The notes under the pieces are model-generated. The model did not search any database. It was not told the origin of the DNA and saw only the letters and a list, made by a program, of their open reading frames with translations. Shown one piece after another: positions 7,374 to 57,515 of a stretch of DNA of 64,000 nucleotides (the first letter of the stretch is position 1; each line of letters begins with the position of its first letter). Source of the stretch: Planctomycetota bacterium (GTDB taxonomy: Bacteria > Planctomycetota > UBA8742 > UBA2392); contig JAJVIO010000008.1 of the NCBI GenBank assembly GCA_022071975.1, positions 62,001 to 126,000 of the forward strand. Reading direction: 5' to 3'. A program made the position numbers and the translations under genes.

Positions 7374-8725
7374 GGCTGTTCCTTTGCGGGCTCGGCGGCG
7401 ACGTTGTTTGAATCCTGTGCGGCGGCCGACGCATCCGGGCCGCGCTGCTGTTTCTGCTCCGGGGCGGCGTCCACGCCTAGCGCTTCGGCGATCAGCCGCA
7501 GCGAGTCGCTGTTGCCCTGGGCGGCGTGCTGTTTGATGCCCTGGATCTGCGGGTGCAGCAGCTTGTTCAGCAAGCGGGTCGAGAAACCCTTGATCTCCTC
7601 CTGCGCTTCCGGCGGCAGGTCGCGCAACTTCGCCATCAGGCGCTCGACTTCGGCCTGGCGCACCTGCTCGGCCTTGTCGCGCAACTCCGTGATCAGGGGC
7701 CCGGCGGCGTAGGTCTGGAAGCCCTTGAGGAAGTGGTCGGTTTCGTCGGCGACAATTTCGCGGCAGTGCTCGAGCTCGCGACTGCGCTCCATGGCGTGCT
7801 CTGCTACTACCTGCTCGAGGTCGTCCACGTTGTAAAGGAACACGCCTTCCAGTTCACTGACATCCTCGGCGATGTCGCGCGGCACCGCCAGGTCCAGCAC
7901 GAACACGGAGCTGTAGCCGCGCTTCTTCTGTGAGTCTTTAAAGTGCTTGCGCTCCAGGATGCGGCCTTCCGCCGCGGTCTGCGAAATCACCACGTGCGCG
8001 GCCGGCAGGTAGTCCTGCAGCAGGTCGAAGGGCACGGCATCACCCTGGAAGCGCGCGGCGGCTTCCTTGGCGCGCTCCAGGTTGCGCGACACCACGATCA
8101 CGCGCCCGATGCCGGCCTCGCGCAGGTAGGTCAAGGTCAGCTCACCGACTTCGCCCACGCCGATCAGCAGGGCGGTCTTGTCGCCCAGGTCTTCGAACAC
8201 GCGCTTTACGAAGCGCACGGCCGTGGCTGAGACGGAGAGCTGCCCTTCTCCGATGCCCGTTTCGGTGTGCAGGCGCTTGGCGGCCTGGAAGGCGCGGTGG
8301 AAAAGGCCGTTGAGGGCCTTTCCGGTTGCGTTTTCGGACTGCGCCAGCAGGTAGGCTTTCTTGACCTGGCTCAGGATCTGGGTTTCGCCCAGCACCAGGC
8401 TGTCGAGGCCGCCGGCCACACGGATCAGGTGCTCTACGGCGTCGCGCCCGCGGTGGAAGTAGCAGTATTGCTCGAGAAACTCGGGCTTCATGCTGTGATC
8501 GGCCGCCAGGCCGCGCAGCAGGCGCTCACGGGCGTCTTCACCTTCGGTGAAGGCGTACACCTCGACGCGGTTGCAGGTGGAGATCAGCACGGCCTCTTCG
8601 CAGTCGGCGCGCTCACGGATGGTCTTGAGCGCCGCGGGGATGCGACGGTCCGGGTACGCCAGGCGCTCGCGCACTTCAAGCGGCGCAAACTTGTGGTTGA
8701 TGCCGAGCACTACAAACCGCTGCAT
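7370..8725 (-). CDS. hemA: Glutamyl-tRNA reductase
   Basis: Reduces Glu-tRNA to glutamate-1-semialdehyde, the first step of C5 tetrapyrrole synthesis. The product has 451 residues. The start at 8725 gives the family N-terminus MQRFVVLGINHKFAPLEVRERLAY. The catalytic Cys is in STCNRVEVYAF, and GGLDSLVLGETQILSQVK is the classic signature. The NADPH domain (LLIGVGEVGELTLTYL) and the helical dimerisation domain follow. The C-terminal tail is rich in Gln and Ala and appears lineage-specific. It overlaps the upstream CcsA/HemX-like gene by 16 bp and the kinase by 4 bp. Confidence 0.95.
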   Translation of the reverse strand: MQRFVVLGINHKFAPLEVRERLAYPDRRIPAALKTIRERADCEEAVLISTCNRVEVYAFTEGEDARERLLRGLAADHSMKPEFLEQYCYFHRGRDAVEHLIRVAGGLDSLVLGETQILSQVKKAYLLAQSENATGKALNGLFHRAFQAAKRLHTETGIGEGQLSVSATAVRFVKRVFEDLGDKTALLIGVGEVGELTLTYLREAGIGRVIVVSRNLERAKEAAARFQGDAVPFDLLQDYLPAAHVVISQTAAEGRILERKHFKDSQKKRGYSSVFVLDLAVPRDIAEDVSELEGVFLYNVDDLEQVVAEHAMERSRELEHCREIVADETDHFLKGFQTYAAGPLITELRDKAEQVRQAEVERLMAKLRDLPPEAQEEIKGFSTRLLNKLLHPQIQGIKQHAAQGNSDSLRLIAEALGVDAAPEQKQQRGPDASAAAQDSNNVAAEPAKEQP

Positions 8726-24698: not shown

Positions 24699-27600
24699 AT
24701 GCGGCCCAAACCCGCATTGGCGTTCCTGGCGCTTTCGATTGCGGCCGTGGGGGCATGGATTTCCCTGCCGGTTGCAGTTCACAGCCAGAACGCCACAGGG
24801 GCAGACGCTCGTGGGGACGATGCAGGTCTGACCTCAAGCCTTGAACTGGGAGTCCCGTTTGACAACAACGCCCAGCAGCTATTCGAGAATCAGCTTACCT
24901 TCGACGAGCGGGCCAGACTCATCAAACTGAAGCCCAGATTCGCGATCGCAGAACCCGATTGCCCGCTGCCGACGTCCGAGCCAGTACAACCATTCTACGT
25001 GAGGTTCCATGAACCTCTCGGGCGCGCGTTCGCAATCCGCCTGTCGGCGGCCGGCGCTTCGTTCGTCGGCTACGCCTACCCTAACACCCACTTCATCCGC
25101 GCGAACAGCGCGGAGTCGCTGCTTGCCATCGGCGACCTGCTGCGCGCCGAACCCAACGTGGCCGGCACTCTGCTGCGCCAGCAGATGGACGCCTGCAGCC
25201 GCCACACATGGGAACTGATTCACGACGACTCCTGGACCGAAGCCGAGTTTCAACTGATGTTCTGGCGCGACACCGACGGCCGACACCAGGAAGAGGTGCT
25301 GCGTGCCGCGGGCGCTGAGATCATCGACGCCGCGCGCGACGAGAACGGTGTAATCGACCCGCGCGTGCCGTTCATCGGCGTGCGGCTTGAACGCAACGCG
25401 CTGATGCATCTGGTTTCTCACCCGGACATCGACTGGATTCAGCCCCGCTATGCAAAGGTCATTCACAACACCGCCAGCGCCGCCCTGGTGAACGCCGCGG
25501 CCAGCGATGTCGGGCCGGGCACCAGCTACAACCTGGATGGTGGGGGACTGGTGGCTGTGGTATTCGATGGCGGCACGGCGCGCGACACACACGCCGACCT
25601 GCAGAGTGCCGCGGCGCCCAACCCCTTCACGCAGTACTTCACCGGCATGGGCAACAAGCGCGTGCTGATTGCGCCGACCATCAGCAGCCAGCAGCCGGGC
25701 TGGGGCATCACCGACACATCCAGCGTTCACTATCATGCGCAGCACGTAACCGGCACGGTCTGCGGCGACGGGGCCTCACTTGCATCCGCGCGCGGCTTCG
25801 CGCCAGAGGCATACGTGGTCAGCATGGGTTGGGGCAGCATGAATACCGAGCGCCAGATCCTGCGCCACTACTTCCGCCACGTGGCCGACAATCACAGTTA
25901 CGGCAACAGCGGCGGCGGCACCGGCGGCTACGACAGCTCGGCCCAGGCAAGCGACATCGACATCCGCGACATCCTGCTGAACATGAGCAAATCCGCCGGC
26001 AACGACGGATCGGGCAGCAGCACCTGCGGCGACGACACCTGCATGAAGAACGCGCTGGTGATTGCCGCCACCGAAGACAACGGCGCTATCGCCAGCTTCA
26101 GCTCGCGCGGGCCTACCGACGACGGTCGCCTGATCCCGCACTTTGCCTGGAACGGCGTGAACCTCACCAGCACCTGGGATAGCAGCGACACGGCCCACAG
26201 CGCGATTTCTGGTACCAGCATGAGCGCGCCCAGTGCCACGGGTTCAATCGTACTGCTGTCCGAGTTATGGCAGCGCGAGATGAACAACCGGGAACTGGCC
26301 CCTGATGCGCTGCGCGGCCTGCTCGCCGCCACGGCCAGCGACCAGTACAACCAGGGTCCGGATTATCGCTTCGGTTTTGGCATACCCGACATCAAGCGCG
26401 CCTGTGACCTGATACTTGCCAACAAGGCCAGCGGCGGCGACCACATCATCCGCGGCAGCATCCGCCAAGGAGATGTGATCGAGTACGACCTGAGCGTCAC
26501 AAGTTCAGCCACGCCGTTGAAGGTGGTTTGTTCCTGGCTGGATATCTACGCCTCGACAGGCGCCAGCGTCACGCTGGTGAACAACATCGACCTCGAACTG
26601 GTGGCGCCTAACGGCACCACCATCCATTACCCCTGGCGCGGCCTGACAGCCACCGGCGTGCAGACCCACCAGTGGACGCGGACCTCGGCCAACAACCGCG
26701 ACAACATTGAACTCGCGGAAGTGGATGCGCCCACCGTCGGCACCTGGAAGGTGCGCGTCAAGGGCACCTCGATTCCGGCCAATCCACAGAGCGGCGTGCC
26801 TAATGACGCCACAGGCTTCGTGCTCGTCAGCGAAAATGCCATGAGCACCGCCCAGCAGGTGTTTGAGGACAGTCTCAACACCGGCAGCCCTGTTGCCATC
26901 CCAGACAACAACACCACTGGCATTACCCGCAACTTCAGCGTCACCAACAACAACGCGCTGAAAGGTTTGCGTGTGTACGTGGATGTGCGGCACCCGCGCC
27001 GCGGGAACATCCAGATTCTACTGCGTCACCCGGACGGAACCACGGTGACCCTGGAGGGCAACGACACCAGCACACGGCCGGACATCATTGGGGTGTTCCC
27101 GGACACGCGGCAGTACGACGACGACGTGGAATCCCTGTTCGCGAAGCCTGCCAACGGGACCTGGAGTGTGATCGTCAAGGACCTGACCGCCAGCAATACA
27201 GGCACGCTTGAGTACCTGGCGCTTGAGCTGGATTACGACACGGTCAACCCGCCGCCCAACCAGCCGCCCAACGCCAACGCGGGCACAGACCAGAACGTGA
27301 ACGAGGGCGTAACTGTCAACCTGAACGGCAGCGGCAGCACAGACCCGGATAGCGATCCGCTGACGTACCAGTGGGTGCGCATCAGTGGGCCGACCATCAC
27401 AATTGCGAACGCCAATACCGCGACGCCCAGCTTTGTGGCGCCCCAGGTCTCCAGCACGCAGGTGGTGGTGGTGCGCCTCACGGTGGATGACGGAAACGGG
27501 CACCAGGACACGGACGACGTCAGCATTACGATCAACGACGTGCCCGCCCCGAACAACCCGCCAAACGCCAACGCGGGCGTGGACTTCTCGGTAACCGAAG

Positions 27601-28277
27601 GAAACCAGGGAACGCTGAACGGCAGCGGCAGCAGCGACCCGGATGGTGACACACTCAGCTACGCCTGGACCGAGCTCGGCAGCAGCTGGGTGACCATCCA
27701 GAACGCCAGCTCCGCGCAGGCGACGTTCACCGCGCCGATGGTGACCACGCCGCTGAACATCACCTTCCAGCTCACTGTCAACGACGGCCGAGGAGGCTCC
27801 GATACAGACACCGTGGTAGTGACGGTGCTGGACAGCGCGGTGAACAACCCGCCGACTGCCGACGCGGGTGCGGACGCATACACGGCCTACGCGGCTTCGA
27901 CGCAGCTCAACGGGAGCGGCAGCAGCGATCCCGAGAACGACACGCTCAGCTTCAGCTGGACGCAGATCGGGGGCGCGAGCACCGTCTCGCTCAACGGCGC
28001 AGCCACGGCAACGCCCTCATTCACCGCCCCCGGCGTTGACGACGTGTTGGTGTTCCAGCTCACGGTCAACGACGGCAACGGCAACAGCGACACCGACACC
28101 GTCACAATCGTTGTCAATGCAACGGGCACCGCTCCAACCGGCGGCGGCACGGGCTCGGGCGGCGGTGGGGGCGGCGGAGACGGCGGCTGCAGCACTAACC
28201 CGGAATCAACATGGTGGCTGGCACTGCTGTTGGTTGCGCTGGGGACGACCGCCGCGGCGCGCCGCAGACGAGCTTGA
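24699..28277 (+). CDS. Secreted subtilisin-like protease with P domain, PKD-like repeats and sorting tail
   Basis: The product has 1192 residues. A signal peptide is followed by an N-terminal pro-region, then an S8 protease domain with D290 in VFDGG, H346 in HAQHVTG, the oxyanion N435 in SAGND and S507 in SGTSMSAP. A proprotein-convertase P-type domain lies at about 720-847 (ITRNFSV...RHPRRGNIQILLRHPDGT...NTGTLEYLALEL). Three PKD-like repeats (each beginning PPNANAG or PPTADAG) run to about 1140. A Gly-rich linker then leads to GGCS, a membrane span and RRRR. This tail resembles MYXO-CTERM sorting signals processed by a CPBP-family intramembrane protease, which is known for myxobacteria but inferred here. 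Start: GGGAGG before ATG. Confidence 0.9.
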   Translation: MRPKPALAFLALSIAAVGAWISLPVAVHSQNATGADARGDDAGLTSSLELGVPFDNNAQQLFENQLTFDERARLIKLKPRFAIAEPDCPLPTSEPVQPFYVRFHEPLGRAFAIRLSAAGASFVGYAYPNTHFIRANSAESLLAIGDLLRAEPNVAGTLLRQQMDACSRHTWELIHDDSWTEAEFQLMFWRDTDGRHQEEVLRAAGAEIIDAARDENGVIDPRVPFIGVRLERNALMHLVSHPDIDWIQPRYAKVIHNTASAALVNAAASDVGPGTSYNLDGGGLVAVVFDGGTARDTHADLQSAAAPNPFTQYFTGMGNKRVLIAPTISSQQPGWGITDTSSVHYHAQHVTGTVCGDGASLASARGFAPEAYVVSMGWGSMNTERQILRHYFRHVADNHSYGNSGGGTGGYDSSAQASDIDIRDILLNMSKSAGNDGSGSSTCGDDTCMKNALVIAATEDNGAIASFSSRGPTDDGRLIPHFAWNGVNLTSTWDSSDTAHSAISGTSMSAPSATGSIVLLSELWQREMNNRELAPDALRGLLAATASDQYNQGPDYRFGFGIPDIKRACDLILANKASGGDHIIRGSIRQGDVIEYDLSVTSSATPLKVVCSWLDIYASTGASVTLVNNIDLELVAPNGTTIHYPWRGLTATGVQTHQWTRTSANNRDNIELAEVDAPTVGTWKVRVKGTSIPANPQSGVPNDATGFVLVSENAMSTAQQVFEDSLNTGSPVAIPDNNTTGITRNFSVTNNNALKGLRVYVDVRHPRRGNIQILLRHPDGTTVTLEGNDTSTRPDIIGVFPDTRQYDDDVESLFAKPANGTWSVIVKDLTASNTGTLEYLALELDYDTVNPPPNQPPNANAGTDQNVNEGVTVNLNGSGSTDPDSDPLTYQWVRISGPTITIANANTATPSFVAPQVSSTQVVVVRLTVDDGNGHQDTDDVSITINDVPAPNNPPNANAGVDFSVTEGNQGTLNGSGSSDPDGDTLSYAWTELGSSWVTIQNASSAQATFTAPMVTTPLNITFQLTVNDGRGGSDTDTVVVTVLDSAVNNPPTADAGADAYTAYAASTQLNGSGSSDPENDTLSFSWTQIGGASTVSLNGAATATPSFTAPGVDDVLVFQLTVNDGNGNSDTDTVTIVVNATGTAPTGGGTGSGGGGGGGDGGCSTNPESTWWLALLLVALGTTAAARRRRA

Positions 28278-28325: not shown

Positions 28326-28507
28326 GTTCGTTTCGGGCAAATTGACCGGTGTTTGTGGTAATCGGTGTAAAATTCGTGACGATATAGGCTTAGGCTTCTG
28401 GGAAAGTCGTAGTTAGAATTTCTTCACACCATAATTCTACATGCTCCCTCTGGGCTCCATATCTGTGCAATGAGCGGCCTGTGATCGGCCGCAAACAGGA
28501 GAATCGC

Positions 28508-31500
28508 ATGCCGCGCAAGTTCGCGCTGCTATGCTGGGCGCTGCTCGTGGGGATCGGCGCCCTTGCAACTTCCAGTCAGCCGCAGCTGCAGAGCCAGGAC
28601 ACCAAATCGTCCGACGGCGCATCGGCCGGGCTGACCAGCAGTCTCGACCTGGGTCAGCCCTTCGACTTCGCCGCCCAGCAGCAGTTCGAACAACAGTTGA
28701 GTGATGCTGACCGCGAACGCCTGATTTACCTGCGTTCGCGCTACGCGCTTGCGGATGCCGCCTGCCCGCTGCCGGTCGCCGAGCCTGCTATGCCATTCTA
28801 TGTACGCATGCGTGCGGACCTGACACGTGCACTGGCCGATCGGCTCTCCGGTGCCGGAGCGACGTTCATAGGCTACGCCAACCCGCACACCCATATGCTG
28901 CGCGCGCGCGACGCGGGATCGCTGGCCGCCATCGGCGACATTCTGCGCTCCGAGCCCACGGTGGCCGGAACGCTGCTGCAGCGCCCGGAAGACAAGCTTT
29001 CGCCGGCGCTGGTTGGACGCGCACGGCCGGGCAACCTGGCCGGTGAGTCTCGCGTGCTGTTCTGGCGTGACGTGCCGACGGAAACCGCGGTAACGCTGCT
29101 GACCGCGTCTGAGGCAATTGTCTTCGAAGGCGGCGTGAATGGTGCATCTCCGCTGTTGACGGTATTCGTGCCGCATGAGGGCGCGCTGAAGCTGATGGAC
29201 AGTGCGTGGGTCGAAAACATCAGCCCCAACGGGTTCAAAGTCAGCACCAACCAGACCAGCGCCGCAATGTCCAACGCGACGCAGGCGATCATCGGTGTGA
29301 ACCCTTACAACCTCGACGGCAACGGCCAGATAGCAGGCGTGTGGGACAATGGCTCCGCCCGTTCTACTCACGAACAATATGGCGGCCTGGCAGGCGTCAG
29401 CACGCCCGCGGGTTGGCCGGGCAGCAGCCGCGTGCACAACGTCAACTCGGCAGGGATGGCCGATCACGTCAGCCATGTGACCGGCACAATCGTGGCGGAC
29501 GGCACGGGCAACGCCGGAGCTCAAGGCTACGCGCCCCGGGCGTTGGCCCTGGTGCATGACTGGAACAACATTGAGTCAGAGCGTCGTCAGGCCGTGCACT
29601 CCTGGCACCACGTAGCTGACAACCACAGCTACGCCGACTTCAATGGCGCTGCTGATGACTGGGCCCAATACAACAGCGGCACGCAACTGGTCGATATCAC
29701 CAACCGCGACCTGTTGATCTGCCAAGTCCAGTCGGCCGGCAACTACGCCACCTACAATCCCGGCGGCACGTACAACAAGCCCTTCGGGAACAGCAACCCG
29801 ACAGCCTCGGTTCCGACCTACAACGCGCACCGCAACGGCCTGATCATTGCGGCGGCCGAAGACAATGAGGACATCGCCGGCTTCTCAAGCCGCGGGCCGG
29901 CTTTGGACGGTCGTCTTGTGCCGCAGTTCACCGCCAACGGAGTGACGCTGTTGAGTACCGGCCGGGCTGCGGACAATGCCTACCTGGGGCCCGCCAGCTG
30001 GTCGGGCACCAGCATGTCGGGGCCGAGTGTGTGCGGTTCCGTCGTGTTGCTCAGCCAGCTCTGGCGGCGCGAACACAACGACCAGATGTTCACGCCCGAC
30101 GTTGCTCGCGCCGTGTTGGCCCAGACCTGCCGCGACAAGTACAACACCGGTCCCGATTACCATTTCGGATTCGGCATCGTTGACTGCAAGGCGGCTGCCG
30201 ACCTGGTCCTGGCCGACAAGGCGGGCGGCGGGGACCGCATCTTCCGCGGCACCATCCGCAGCGGCGAAGTGAAAGAATACTCGTTCAGTGTCTCGACGTC
30301 CGACCCGCTGCACATCGTGCTGTCGTGGCTCGACATCTGGGCCAGCAGCGGCGCGGCGATTACCCTTGTCAACGACCTCGACATCGAACTCCAGGACCCG
30401 AGCGGCACTGTCTACTACCCGTACTCGGGCGTCACGGCCGCGGCCTCTGCCTCGCACACCCACACGTTCACCACCGCCGGCCCCAACCGCCGCGACAACA
30501 TCGAGCTGGTGCACGTGGACAGCCCGGCGGCCGGAACCTGGACTTTACGCGTCAAGGGGAACAGCATTCCGGCAAACCCGCAGACCGGCGTTCCAAACGA
30601 CGCCACCGGCTTCGTGGTGGCGAGCAGCCACAGCATCAGCCTGCAGAAGCTGCTGGTGCAGGACCCGGTCAACGGCGGCACGCCCGTCAGCATCCCCGAC
30701 AACAGCGCTTCCGGCATCACCCGCACGCTGGTGGTGAACGATGCCCGCATCGCGCTGGGTGTTCGGCTGCACGCGCGCATCTACCACGAACGCCGTGGCG
30801 ACCTGGCGGTCACGCTGACCAGCCCCTCCGGAACGGTGATCAACCTGAAGACCACCAACAACGGCATGCTCGACGATCAGGCCGACCTGATCGCCGTTTT
30901 CCCTGACACCAAGCAGGATGACGACGACGTCGCGGCCGCTTTGTACGAGTACGTGCAGGGCACCTGGACCGTCAAGATCAGCGACACAGTAGGCAGCAAC
31001 ACCGGCGAGTTGACCTGGCTGGCGCTTGAGTTCGACCTGCGCAGCAACGCCGCGCCCGTGGCCGACGCCGGCAGCAGCTTCGACGTGCGCGAAAACGCCA
31101 ACGGCCAGCTGGATGCGACCGGCAGCAGCGACAGCGACGGCGACGCGCTAAGCTACGCATGGACGCAGACCGGCGGCGCAATCGCGCTGACGCTATCAAG
31201 CACGAGTGTCGCCCAGCCGACGTTCACGGCTCCTTCCGTCAGCCAGGACCAGATCGTGACGTTCCAGGTGACGGTGACGGACCTTTCGGGCTTGAGCTCG
31301 AACGACACGGTGCAGGTCACCGTAAAGAACAACCTGCCGCCGACTGCCGATGCAGGCAGCGACTTCGACGTGCGTGAAAACAACAACGGACAGCTCGATG
31401 GCAGCGGAACCAGCGACCCCGAGGGCGACCCGATCACCTACGCATGGAGCCAGCTCAGCGGCGCGATCACGCTGAACCTCAGCAACCCGGCCGTCGCGCA

Positions 31501-32326
31501 GCCCACGTTCACAGCACCCAGCATAACGCAGGATGAAGTGGTGGTGTTCGAAGTGACAGCCACGGACAACCGCGGCGACTTCACGACCGACACGGTGCAG
31601 GTCACGGTGCGCAACAATCTCGCGCCGGTAGCCAGCGCCGGCGTCGACTTCGGTATCCTGGGCGGCGTTGCAGGCCAGCTTGATGGTGCGGGATCAACGG
31701 ACCCGGAATCCGACCCGTTGACCTACGCCTGGGTGCAGCTCAGCGGCGCGATCAGCCTGACATTGAGCAGCGCCGGCGCGGCGCAACCCACTTTCACGAC
31801 GCCGGTGGTCACGCAGGATGAAGTGCTCACCTTCGAGCTGACGGTCACCGATGACCGCGGCGACTTCAGCGTCGACACCGTTCAGGTGACCATTGAGGTG
31901 AACGTCGCGCCGGTTGCCGATGCCGGCGCTAACTTCGCGCTGGTGTGGGGCGCGGCGGGCCAGCTCGACGGCAGCGCCAGCTACGACCCCAACGGGGGCG
32001 ACACGTTCAGCTTCCAGTGGGTGCAGATTGCCGGCACAAACACGGTGACGCTTTCCAGCAACACCGACCCGCAACCCACATTTACAGCGCCCGGCGTTGA
32101 CGACGTCCTGCAGTTCGAGCTGACCGTGACCGACGCCAACGGCCTGAGCAGCAGCGACATCGTGATCGTGTGGGTCAACGAAACCGGCGCCGTTCCCATT
32201 GTCAGCGGTGGGGGAGGCAAAGATGATGGAGGCGGCTGCAGCACCCAGGACGGCGCAAGCTGGCTGTATGCGTTGGCACTGGCGCTGATGGCGGCCGCAT
32301 TGGCCCGAAGACGCCGCACGGAATAA
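28508..32326 (+). CDS. Second secreted subtilisin-like protease (paralogue of the upstream one)
   Basis: The product has 1272 residues and the same plan as the upstream gene: signal peptide, pro-region, S8 domain (D280 in VWDNG, H320 in DHVSHVTG, S502 in SGTSMSGP), P-type domain and four PKD-like repeats starting APVADAG, PPTADAG, APVASAG and APVADAG. It ends in GGCS, a membrane span (LYALALALMAAALA) and RRRR. The GTG at 28481 is rejected as start because AGGAG lies 7 bp before the ATG at 28508. The two genes are tandem and 230 bp apart, a likely old duplication with expanded repeats. Confidence 0.9.
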   Translation: MPRKFALLCWALLVGIGALATSSQPQLQSQDTKSSDGASAGLTSSLDLGQPFDFAAQQQFEQQLSDADRERLIYLRSRYALADAACPLPVAEPAMPFYVRMRADLTRALADRLSGAGATFIGYANPHTHMLRARDAGSLAAIGDILRSEPTVAGTLLQRPEDKLSPALVGRARPGNLAGESRVLFWRDVPTETAVTLLTASEAIVFEGGVNGASPLLTVFVPHEGALKLMDSAWVENISPNGFKVSTNQTSAAMSNATQAIIGVNPYNLDGNGQIAGVWDNGSARSTHEQYGGLAGVSTPAGWPGSSRVHNVNSAGMADHVSHVTGTIVADGTGNAGAQGYAPRALALVHDWNNIESERRQAVHSWHHVADNHSYADFNGAADDWAQYNSGTQLVDITNRDLLICQVQSAGNYATYNPGGTYNKPFGNSNPTASVPTYNAHRNGLIIAAAEDNEDIAGFSSRGPALDGRLVPQFTANGVTLLSTGRAADNAYLGPASWSGTSMSGPSVCGSVVLLSQLWRREHNDQMFTPDVARAVLAQTCRDKYNTGPDYHFGFGIVDCKAAADLVLADKAGGGDRIFRGTIRSGEVKEYSFSVSTSDPLHIVLSWLDIWASSGAAITLVNDLDIELQDPSGTVYYPYSGVTAAASASHTHTFTTAGPNRRDNIELVHVDSPAAGTWTLRVKGNSIPANPQTGVPNDATGFVVASSHSISLQKLLVQDPVNGGTPVSIPDNSASGITRTLVVNDARIALGVRLHARIYHERRGDLAVTLTSPSGTVINLKTTNNGMLDDQADLIAVFPDTKQDDDDVAAALYEYVQGTWTVKISDTVGSNTGELTWLALEFDLRSNAAPVADAGSSFDVRENANGQLDATGSSDSDGDALSYAWTQTGGAIALTLSSTSVAQPTFTAPSVSQDQIVTFQVTVTDLSGLSSNDTVQVTVKNNLPPTADAGSDFDVRENNNGQLDGSGTSDPEGDPITYAWSQLSGAITLNLSNPAVAQPTFTAPSITQDEVVVFEVTATDNRGDFTTDTVQVTVRNNLAPVASAGVDFGILGGVAGQLDGAGSTDPESDPLTYAWVQLSGAISLTLSSAGAAQPTFTTPVVTQDEVLTFELTVTDDRGDFSVDTVQVTIEVNVAPVADAGANFALVWGAAGQLDGSASYDPNGGDTFSFQWVQIAGTNTVTLSSNTDPQPTFTAPGVDDVLQFELTVTDANGLSSSDIVIVWVNETGAVPIVSGGGGKDDGGGCSTQDGASWLYALALALMAAALARRRRTE

Positions 32327-34362: not shown

Positions 34363-35005
34363 AACCCGCATATTAAGCGGGTCTCAGGCCAAAACGCGCG
34401 AGAATGCCCCAGAATCGTTCGGAAGGGCCAGGGTGGACCCAAGGCAGGGTCCGGCATAGAAATGGAGCATCTCCACAGCTGGTCCGCCGGACAGGGGCCC
34501 CGCAAGGGGCCCGCTAAGATAGCCGGGCGCGTAAGCTCCCGGATTCGGCCAGCAGCGTTCTTGGGCGCCCGAAGGGCCGCCTTACATGGTCCTTGCACGC
34601 TCTAGGCGGCCCTCACGGGCGCGCGGGCATTCGCTTCTAGCTCTCCGGGGGCTCACGCCCCCGGTTACCCTGGCTAGGCCCTTCGGGCCAGTCGACTGCC
34701 AATGAACCGTGACAACGCGCCAGCCCAATTCCACGCGGCGAGCCAATGGAACGACCCGGGATCGAGTTCGCATGTCCTGCCGCCTGACAGCTGCCGCCTG
34801 CCACCTGGATATCCTACGTCCGATAATCGATGTTATGTCCGGTTGAGCCCGGGGGAGGCCGATTGGCCATAAGCCTCTACAACAAGCCACTTGCGGCCGA
34901 TTCGCAGGTTGGTCGCCCCAACTTTATCTCTGCGCCACCTGTTACGCCGCCAACTTGTGCCGCTATGATGAGTTCCACCCTGATCGACCCCTGCGAGGAT
35001 TCCAC
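34363..35005. other. 640-bp gene-free region dense in GC-rich stem-loops
   Basis: At least five strong hairpins occur: GGGCCCC/GGGGCCC at 34495-34512, a long one with arms 34565-34581 and 34605-34622 (GGCGGCCCT...GGGCGC), CCGGGGGC/GCCCCCGG at 34645-34664 and GGCCC/GGGCC at 34677-34689, plus a GGAG/CTCC stem near 34465. No tRNA, tmRNA, RNase P or SRP signature was found on either strand. No plausible gene is present; the last part is the leader of the next gene. Confidence 0.7.
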
Positions 35006-36241
35006 ATGCGGGCAGTCTTTGCCGCGTTTCTTGCGATGCTGGCTCTGCCACTCTCGGCCGCCACTTTGGCCGTGAACCTCTCCGGCACCACCGGCCCCGA
35101 CTTCGGCAACCAGCTCAATGACACCGACGTTGAGGTCGCCCGCTATGTGCTGCAGCCGACCGGCGGCAACGTTTCGATCGATTCGATCACCATCCACATC
35201 AGCAACTTCGCCCTGGCCGACAACGCCTTCTCGCGCCTGCGCCTGTTCTTTGACGCCGATGGCAACGGGACCTTCGACCCGACAGAAGAGCTGGACGAAG
35301 CCAGTACCATCGTTCCCAGCGGCGCCACTGACGACGTCACCTTCAACGAGACCTTCGTGGCGCCCAGCGGGCTGATCCGCACATTGCAACTGCGCGTGAA
35401 CATCGGCGTGGATACGTCCGTGTACGGTGAGGCCTTCAACTTCAGCATCGACCCGCAGGCCGACATCGTGCTGACCAGCGGCGGCGACTCAGTCAGCAGC
35501 ACCACAGTGGCGACCTCCAACGACATCACCATCCGCCACAGCGAGAATCAGCTTGTGGCCGGCACTGGAAACCCGACCGCGCCGCGCTCGGCAGCCTTGA
35601 ACACCGGCAACTTCCCGGCCTTGCACTTCATCGTCGCCAGCCTGACGCCAACCGGCCCGGGCCAGTTGCAGGGCATCGACCTGAACTCGATCACCATCTC
35701 GGTCACCTGTGCCAACGCCGCGCAGACAGCCACGGTCACGCGCCTGGCCCTGTGGCAGGATGACGGCGACGCGGTGTTTGAGCCCGGCGCCGGCGAGGTG
35801 CTGATCCTGCAGCGCGCGCCCGCGGATGCCGGCAAATGGGTGATTGCGGGCAGCGTCATCAGCGTGACTTTCGACGGCACGCCGGTGCAGAACCTGTCTG
35901 ACATTGCCAGCGGCGGAGCCCGCACCTTCTGGGTCGGTATCGACTTCGGCAGCGGTCCGGACGCCACCTGCGAGGTTTCCGTGACGCGCACCCAGGTGCT
36001 GGGTGCCCTGGGCGCTGCGGCGGATTTCTTCGTGACCACGCCCAATTTCATCAGCGGCGACATCATCAACGTAAGCACGCCGCCCGAGCCGCCCAAGCCG
36101 GCCGAGCCGGAAGGCGAAGGCGGCTGCAGCAGCAATGGGCGGCCCGGCGGCTTGCTGCTTGTGATTGCACTGGCGCTGGTTGCACTGGCGGCGCGCAATT
36201 TGCCGCGTAAGCGCAGCAGCCCGGGAAACACAGAAAAGTAA
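35006..36241 (+). CDS. Exported protein with GGCS-type sorting tail
   Basis: The product has 411 residues. A signal peptide (AVFAAFLAMLALPLSAATLA) is followed by a beta-rich extracellular part. DADGNGTFDPTEEL at about 83-96 resembles a calcium loop and DDGDAVFEPGAGEVL about 160 residues later is similar. A Pro-Glu linker leads to GGCSS, one membrane span (LLLVIALALVALAAR) and a basic RKR tail. The tail matches those of the two subtilases, so all three likely pass through the same export and anchoring route. The start at 35006 has GAGG 8 bp upstream. Confidence 0.82.
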   Translation: MRAVFAAFLAMLALPLSAATLAVNLSGTTGPDFGNQLNDTDVEVARYVLQPTGGNVSIDSITIHISNFALADNAFSRLRLFFDADGNGTFDPTEELDEASTIVPSGATDDVTFNETFVAPSGLIRTLQLRVNIGVDTSVYGEAFNFSIDPQADIVLTSGGDSVSSTTVATSNDITIRHSENQLVAGTGNPTAPRSAALNTGNFPALHFIVASLTPTGPGQLQGIDLNSITISVTCANAAQTATVTRLALWQDDGDAVFEPGAGEVLILQRAPADAGKWVIAGSVISVTFDGTPVQNLSDIASGGARTFWVGIDFGSGPDATCEVSVTRTQVLGALGAAADFFVTTPNFISGDIINVSTPPEPPKPAEPEGEGGCSSNGRPGGLLLVIALALVALAARNLPRKRSSPGNTEK

Positions 36242-36310: not shown

Positions 36311-37291
36311 ATGAATCGTGTTGCGTTGTTCGCGCTCACGGCTGTGACGGCGGCAGTGTTAGCCGGCAGCTTGAGCGCCGCCGTGGAGGTCGGCGACGCC
36401 GGCCCCAACTTCAAATTCGACAAGAGCTGGAACCTTGAGGCCGGTGTCACTGAGCTCGATCAGCTGCGTGGCAAAGTGGTGATGATTGAGGCCTGGGCAA
36501 CATGGTGAGGGCCCTGCATGAAGGGGGTTCCCCATCTACAGGAGTTGAACGACAAGTTCCGTGAACGCGGCTTCGAGATCGTGGCCGTCAGCAAGGAAGA
36601 CGCGAACTTGATCCAGACCAAGCTGATCGACGCCAAGAAGGTCACCTACGGCGTTGTGAAGGCTGACATTGGCAGCATCTACGAAACCCGTGGCATCCCC
36701 CACTGCTGGGTGCTCGATGCCGAGGGCAAATGCATTTTCAAGGGTCACCCGAGCAGCGTGACTGCTGAAAGCGTCGAAGAGTGGATCAAGAATCTGGCCC
36801 CCACCAAGGTTGACCGCGAAGTTGCCAAGGAAGTGAAGGGCGCGGCTGAGTCCTTCAACAAGGGCGAGTACGGCAAGGCCCAGGTCGAGGCGGCAAAGGT
36901 CGGCGCGGAAGCCACCGACGAACTGGTCAAAGCTGACGCCAAGTACGTTGAAGAGCTCGTGCAGAAGCACGTCGACATCTACACCAAGAAGATGGAAGCC
37001 GCCCGCACGGCCGGCGACCTGGTGAAGCTCGGCAAGGTAATGGAGGAGGCCGCCGCCAAGTTCAAAGGCAGCGAGCAGGGCGACAAGTGGGCCACCGAGG
37101 CCAAGGAACTCACCAAGAGCAAGGAGTACAAGGACACGCTCAAGGCCCAGGAGGACCTCGATGAACTCAAGCCCAAGCTTGAAGACATGAAGGGCTCCAG
37201 CGCCAAGAAGGCACTCGAGAAGATCGCCAAGAAGTACCCGGACACCCCGGCCGGCAAAGAAGCGGCCGAGCTGGCCAAGCGCTACGAGTAA
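36311..37291 (+). CDS. Thioredoxin-like selenoprotein candidate with in-frame UGA
   Basis: Reading through TGA at 36506-36508 joins two in-frame parts into 326 residues. The protein has a signal peptide (ALFALTAVTAAVLAGSLSA) and then a thioredoxin fold: VVMIEAWATW-U66-GPCMKGVPHLQELNDKF, later RGIPHCWVLDAEGKCIF with the cis-Pro. The UGA sits exactly at the first Cys of WCGPC, so Sec66-Gly-Pro-Cys69 is expected. About 160 residues of charged helix follow. UGA is a stop elsewhere in this window. A ribosome site GGGAGAG precedes the ATG. It likely acts as an exported thiol or selenol oxidoreductase. Alternatives are a nonsense mutation or sequencing error. The sel genes must lie elsewhere. Confidence 0.8.
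36509..36542 (+). promoter_or_regulatory. Candidate bacterial SECIS stem-loop
   Basis: Directly after the UGA, CCUG (36513-36516) can pair with CAGG (36539-36542) and GGGG (36523-36526) with CCCC (36530-36533), leaving a GUU apical loop. The loop G is 19 nt from the UGA, in the range for bacterial SECIS elements read by SelB. The internal loop is asymmetric and the pairing is modest. Read by eye only. Confidence 0.55.
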
Positions 37292-57044: not shown

Positions 57045-57515
57045 TCAGGTTTCCGCGTGCTCGACCTGCTTGCTGAGCATGGTCGAGAGCTGCTCCAGGT
57101 CCGCGCGCAGGTTCTGCACCGCGTTGTCGCTCAGGCCGCCGAACAGTTTCGCGATGTCGTGGGTGTGCTGCGGGATGATCTTGTCGCAGTACTCGCGCCC
57201 CTTGTCGGTCAGCTTGATAAAGGTCTGGCGCCGGTCGGCCGGGTTGGTTTCGCGGCGCGCCAGGCCCTGCTTCTCGAGGCGGTCCACGATGCCGGTCAGG
57301 TTGCCGGCCGTCACCAGCAGCTTTTCGCTGAGCGCGCTGAAGGTCAGGCCTTCGGGCGAACGCTCGAGCTGCGCCAGCACGTCGAACTGCGGCATGGTGC
57401 ACTCTTCGCGCAGGCCGGCGCGCAGGTCGCGCATCGCGAGGTTGTAGCAGCGGGCGAGGCGCAGCCACAGGCCGACGCGCGCGCGCTCCGATGGGGTCAA
57501 TGGGTTGTCTGCCAT
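57045..57515 (-). CDS. MarR-family transcriptional regulator
   Basis: The product has 156 residues. A winged helix-turn-helix is visible in LERSPEGLTFSALSEKLLVTAGNLTGIVDRLEKQGLARRETNPADRRQTFIKLTDKGREY. It probably binds an aryl-CoA or aromatic ligand and represses the surrounding operon. The palindrome ACGCAAC-N7-GTTGCGT before the first operon gene (58738-58758) is a good operator candidate. AGGAG lies 7 bp before the ATG. Confidence 0.9.
   Translation of the reverse strand: MADNPLTPSERARVGLWLRLARCYNLAMRDLRAGLREECTMPQFDVLAQLERSPEGLTFSALSEKLLVTAGNLTGIVDRLEKQGLARRETNPADRRQTFIKLTDKGREYCDKIIPQHTHDIAKLFGGLSDNAVQNLRADLEQLSTMLSKQVEHAET

Follow-up and report, generated by a model that had tools for sequence, protein, structure and literature searches.

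Selenocysteine (Sec, U) in exported thioredoxin-like proteins, which the initial annotation of the locus described here took to be known in bacteria, is indeed on record: UxxC selenoproteins of this fold, of the TlpA/Redoxin kind, have already been catalogued (PMC9312934, PMC13188914). The use of Sec by planctomycetes is likewise known (PMC4807772). The bacteria richest in selenoproteins are mostly anaerobic Thermodesulfobacteriota, Synergistota and Clostridia, together with one Methylomirabilota metagenome-assembled genome (MAG), and planctomycetes are absent from that list (PMC13188914).

The window, i.e., the whole 64,000-nucleotide stretch analysed, corresponds to positions 62001-126000 of contig C1 of a Planctomycetota MAG (4.24 Mb, 91 contigs, ca. 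89% complete). An open reading frame on its plus strand (36311-37291) starts with ATG at 36311, downstream of a Shine-Dalgarno-like GGGAGAG stretch, and ends with TAA at 37289-37291. Its sole in-frame TGA (36506-36508, plus strand) is flanked by open frame on both sides and lies exactly where a WCGPC site of the ResA/TlpA type has its first Cys. With the TGA read as U (U66), the product is 326 amino acids long and contains EAWATW-U-GPCMKGVPHL and, in the cis-Pro region, RGIPHCWVLD. The reading frame, Pfam and structure matches, AlphaFold2 modelling and orthologues together outline a selenoprotein gene that codes for a signal peptide, a ResA/TlpA-like thioredoxin domain and an eight-helix C-terminal domain. 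The probable signal peptide (36311-36385, plus strand), as read from the sequence, has a hydrophobic stretch and an AxA-like end but no lipobox Cys; AlphaFold2 placed a helix at residues 4-17 of this region with low confidence.

The thioredoxin domain (36386-36800, plus strand), with the motif W-A-T-W-U-G-P-C and the cis-Pro region GIPH, was delimited by Pfam, solved structures and AlphaFold2. The Pfam families AhpC-TSA, Redoxin and Thioredoxin_8 all match the protein across the TGA, and so do its best solved relatives, the ResA/DsbE-type oxidoreductases; the part downstream of the TGA thus continues the same fold, as had been proposed. An AlphaFold2 model built on a 50-sequence alignment had a mean pLDDT of 92 and a ResA-like thioredoxin domain. 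The remainder, approximately residues 167-326 (36809-37288, plus strand), was modelled as an eight-helix domain with a pLDDT of 97. No Pfam match was found for this tail, and its identification with a known Pfam domain was rejected; no PDB entry matched it significantly, the best being the TPR proteins BamD and YbgF (E ≥ 0.1). The initial annotation had called the C-terminal extension helical and novel. It is helical, but it is not entirely new, since profile searches relate it to the C-terminal half of NF041382.

Upstream of the gene, the window contains a gene for a GEVED-like protein, and downstream of it genes for a DUF480 protein, an oligopeptide ABC transporter and PrkA; these neighbours offered no operon clue, and no sister thioredoxin was found beside the gene. 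The product of the gene directly upstream (34955-36241, plus strand) is a putative exported protein with a weak GEVED match, and its C-terminus, a Cys/Gly-rich stretch followed by a hydrophobic helix and basic residues, resembles a C-terminal sorting signal. Elsewhere in the window, two adjacent genes (24699-28277 and 28481-32326, plus strand) code for large subtilase proteins of similar architecture, with a P-domain and PKD/Ig-like repeats. A further TGA candidate at 57045 on the minus strand was judged by eye to be a gene boundary.

A profile search of the same genome returned 12 matches to the window protein; nine of them, the window gene included, carry exactly one TGA. In a separate scan of genome contigs Sec was written as Cys codons, and Cys homologues were therefore returned by design. 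Among related genomes, 69 of 99 had matches, and most same-family matches hold one TGA. A non-redundant set of 81 homologues with TGA and a set of 107 with Cys were extracted, and the alignment of homologues proposed in the initial annotation revealed either Cys or TGA at the site. In the 81 with TGA, this codon supplies the first residue of UxxC (the U..C pairs were picked by a script, and the full listing shows other internal TGAs only as terminators near the C-terminus). The motif is mostly UGPC; UAPC, UEPC, USPC, UPPC, UPTC, UGHC, UGIC, UGAC and UGYC also occur. In an orthologue set made up of the window gene and relatives 50-78% identical to it, the TGA was at the same alignment column in 13 of 13 sequences. 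Ratios of dN/dS among these orthologues were 0.04-0.22 for the thioredoxin part behind the TGA and 0.05-0.37 for the tail, and purifying selection acts on both sides of the TGA. Only three alignment columns are invariant, U66 and C69 among them. Seven Sec/Cys changes were needed on a tree of 123 rows, at least four of them on well-supported branches; one change separates the Cys copy of genome G005 from the Sec orthologue that it adjoins.

All components of the Sec machinery for which a search had been recommended are present in the genome: a tRNA-Sec with a UCA anticodon (73 bits), selA ca. 0.8 kb upstream of it (483 bits), selB (334 bits) and selD (391 bits), the last carrying an in-frame TGA of its own. 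An apparent second tRNA-Sec gene was rejected, since it arises from a 127-nt overlap between two contig ends. Within the phylum, TGA forms were tabulated in 43 genomes with the machinery and in none without it, while genomes with Cys forms only numbered eight with and five without (Fisher p = 0.0003, in a hand-compiled table that sets the listed family matches of the relatives search against SelA and SelB, and with related genomes that are not independent). G098 and G040, which have TGA forms but lack a full SelA, were the sole two of 10 genomes tested with SelB above the cut-off; selA is therefore probably missing from them because the assemblies are incomplete.

At least 16 Sec candidates, the nine thioredoxin-like genes included, were seen in the genome of the window; this is a lower bound, as the scan by coding potential covered ca. 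0.8 Mb, part of the genome, and recovered real cases but missed known ones. One of them (L237; contig C45, match at 8157-8417, minus strand) is a SCO1/SenC protein (PF02630, 7e-19 with U read as Cys) with oxidase-like genes beside it, and its in-frame TGA occupies, in the CxxxC copper site (STCAFTUP), the position of the second Cys. Since SCO1/SenC is absent from the selenoprotein table of PMC13188914, this may be a new Sec family. A small exported heavy-metal-associated (HMA) protein, CopZ/MerP-like (L252:11052-11435, minus strand; contig C4, ca. 91244), has the motif GMTUANC, with TGA at the first metal-binding Cys. A Sec glutathione peroxidase (NVASAUGLT; L245:3535-4041, plus strand) lies at ca. 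147676 of contig C1, ca. 22 kb downstream of the window. Three further Sec proteins of the AhpC/TSA family (L263:13638-14129, minus strand; L280:10288-10965, minus strand; L226:1141-1956, plus strand) comprise a Bcp-like (NTSGUTK), an AhpC-like (FTFVUPT) and a UxxC form (WUPYC).

The TGA is followed by a bacterial SECIS-like hairpin (36509-36549, plus strand; folding energy -13.7 kcal/mol), with an upper stem GGGG/CCCC (36523-36526 paired with 36530-36533), a GUU loop at 36527-36529 and a lower stem CCUG/CAGG. The initial annotation had placed a GUU loop 19 nt away; the loop starts at nt +19 after the UGA, a spacing of 18 nt, so the proposal was right to within one base. Published rules for bacterial SECIS elements call for a loop of 3-9 nt, an upper stem of 4 bp or more, a G in the first two positions of the loop, a spacing of 16-37 nt and a minimum free energy of -7.5 kcal/mol or lower (PMC13188914), and the recommended folding of the window hairpin gave a structure that conforms to them in its loop, 4-bp stem, spacing and energy. 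The rules were obeyed by 66 of 81 Sec genes versus 21 of 107 Cys genes (8 of 24 near and 13 of 83 far Cys homologues), sets that are related by descent and separated by only four to seven independent changes. With a G[G/U] loop also demanded, the numbers were 62 of 81 versus 2 of 24 near and 3 of 83 far Cys homologues. About a fifth of Sec genes fail the rules; a good hairpin is lacking from two orthologues, L045 and L161. Comparison with synonymous recodings gave a mean z of -2.14 for Sec genes (53% at p ≤ 0.05) and of -0.24 for Cys genes (6% at p ≤ 0.05). We conclude that the Sec genes are more structured than their protein sequence and codon usage would account for, and the Cys genes hardly so. 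Phylogenetically independent pair tests of Sec against the hairpin had too few independent changes to be informative. The stems differ between subgroups of Sec genes, and the loop stays in roughly one position (for example, UGCGGC-AGUU-GCCGCA), and in one subgroup the stem-loop GAAGGC-GUU-GCCUUC is invariant in 16 of 16 genes. The SECIS element seems to leave a footprint in the protein sequence itself: position +7, counted from Sec, holds V or L in 70 of 81 Sec forms and M or I in 91 of 107 Cys forms, as if dictated by the loop, and GU is found at nt +17 to +21 in 68 of 81 Sec versus 10 of 107 Cys forms.

A premature stop, caused by a sequencing or assembly error or by a nonsense mutation newly arisen in a normal Cys thioredoxin gene, might be suspected in a MAG fragmented into 91 contigs and in a family where Cys homologues are common. 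However, 13 orthologues, taken from separate assemblies, and 81 homologues have TGA at the same codon, the sequence behind it is under purifying selection, and a SECIS-like structure is present. Error or pseudogene was rejected on the first two of these grounds, and we regard a premature stop as extremely improbable. An in-frame UGA by itself cannot tell which residue is inserted, so readthrough or recoding as ordinary Cys or Trp, without selenium, has also to be weighed. Against it, the TGA forms are distributed across genomes in step with the Sec machinery and the hairpin has the position and loop of a SECIS element, while UGA serves as the stop codon of other genes, including some of the homologues that carry an internal TGA. 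The last observation led us to reject an altered genetic code, and it agrees with the initial annotation, in which the recoding was local; insertion of an ordinary amino acid is very unlikely. We conclude that 36311-37291 is almost certainly a selenoprotein gene with Sec as the first residue of the redox motif. We are highly confident that it codes for an exported ResA/TlpA-type oxidoreductase with Sec as the attacking residue, the incorporation of Sec, export, substrate and role of the tail being predictions.

The most likely function predicted from the sequence is that of an exported Sec-dependent thiol-disulfide oxidoreductase. SelD would supply selenophosphate and SelA would make Sec-tRNA(UCA); the hairpin behind the UGA, with its GUU loop 18 nt downstream, would recruit SelB with Sec-tRNA(UCA), and translation would continue at 36506-36508 with Sec rather than terminate. 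The thioredoxin domain of the exported protein would then reduce or exchange substrate disulfides outside the cytoplasm, with the U66 selenolate attacking and C69 resolving; attack by the first residue and resolution by the second Cys is established thioredoxin chemistry. The eight-helix tail probably docks to partner or sister proteins. Five of the nine Sec copies in the genome (on contigs C1, C4, C14, C48 and C66) match almost the whole length of the tailed profile. On one strand of contig C4 (G000, L029), a tailed Sec copy (UGPC, 120174-121172) is followed by a Cys copy (CGPC, 121273-122268) and by a copy without active-site Cys (122401-123378), and the same Sec/Cys/active-site-less set is found on contig C50 of G006. 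These tandem sets suggest that the tails may let sister proteins work together. It is also conceivable that the Sec protein serves mainly as a subunit of a multi-thioredoxin assembly built by the tails, with different tasks for the Sec, Cys and active-site-less sisters. Such a role would suit the tandem tailed copies in both genomes, and a tail that is under selection and common to the VPGUxxT family; on the other hand, U66 and C69 are among the few invariant columns and the window gene has no sister beside it, and we consider it unlikely. For the oxidoreductase that we prefer, we propose only tentatively that the tail is the docking module of a Sec-dependent redox assembly outside the cytoplasm, in an expanded Planctomycetota family that includes the tandem sets and has the module in common with VPGUxxT proteins.

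One planctomycete genome has multiplied a single kind of exported thioredoxin into at least nine Sec paralogues, each of which a standard gene caller would truncate at the UGA or begin at a later codon. In some genomes Sec and Cys copies adjoin, which would allow a direct test of the advantage that Sec gives one protein over Cys. No description of the tailed UxxC subfamily or of its expansion was found in the literature searched, which covered few subscription journals. The protein shares the fold, the W-CxxC arrangement and the cis-Pro region with the Cys forms of ResA/TlpA/DsbE (for example, PDB 4nmu, 1st9 and 3gl3) and has WUxxC in place of WCxxC, as expected of the ResA/TlpA type; unlike them, it carries an additional helical domain and has Sec where they have their first Cys, and it scored 93 bits against NCBIfam ResA (NF002854), below the cut-off of 170. 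With NF041054 (ResA-like WAxxUGC motif-containing protein) it has the ResA-like domain in common, in a partial match over residues 45-202, but at 46.5 bits against a cut-off of 300 and with the motif UGPC rather than UGC it lies outside that family. Its residues 153-323 match positions 174-348 of NF041382 (VPGUxxT thioredoxin-like selenoprotein type 1) with E = 4e-17, and paralogue L004 matches the same C-terminal half at 9e-24. The N-terminal half has no match, the motif is UGPC rather than VPGUxxT, and the score, from the C-terminal half only, is 62.5 bits against a cut-off of 350; since the active-site half differs, the window gene does not belong to that family. The UxxC selenoproteins of PMC13188914 (Table 1) that are TlpA-like (cd02966, "thiol-disulfide isomerase-like") or of the Redoxin family (PF08534), compared here by description, share with it the thioredoxin fold, the Redoxin/AhpC-TSA match and Sec as the first residue of UxxC; that review mentions neither the tailed architecture nor the expansion to many copies in Planctomycetota. 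What the present locus and its relatives add to these systems is a Sec subfamily whose eight-helix tail has its other match in VPGUxxT selenoproteins, an apparent imprint of the SECIS element on the protein sequence, and the presence, in a single genome, of at least nine Sec paralogues together with tandem Sec, Cys and active-site-less copies.
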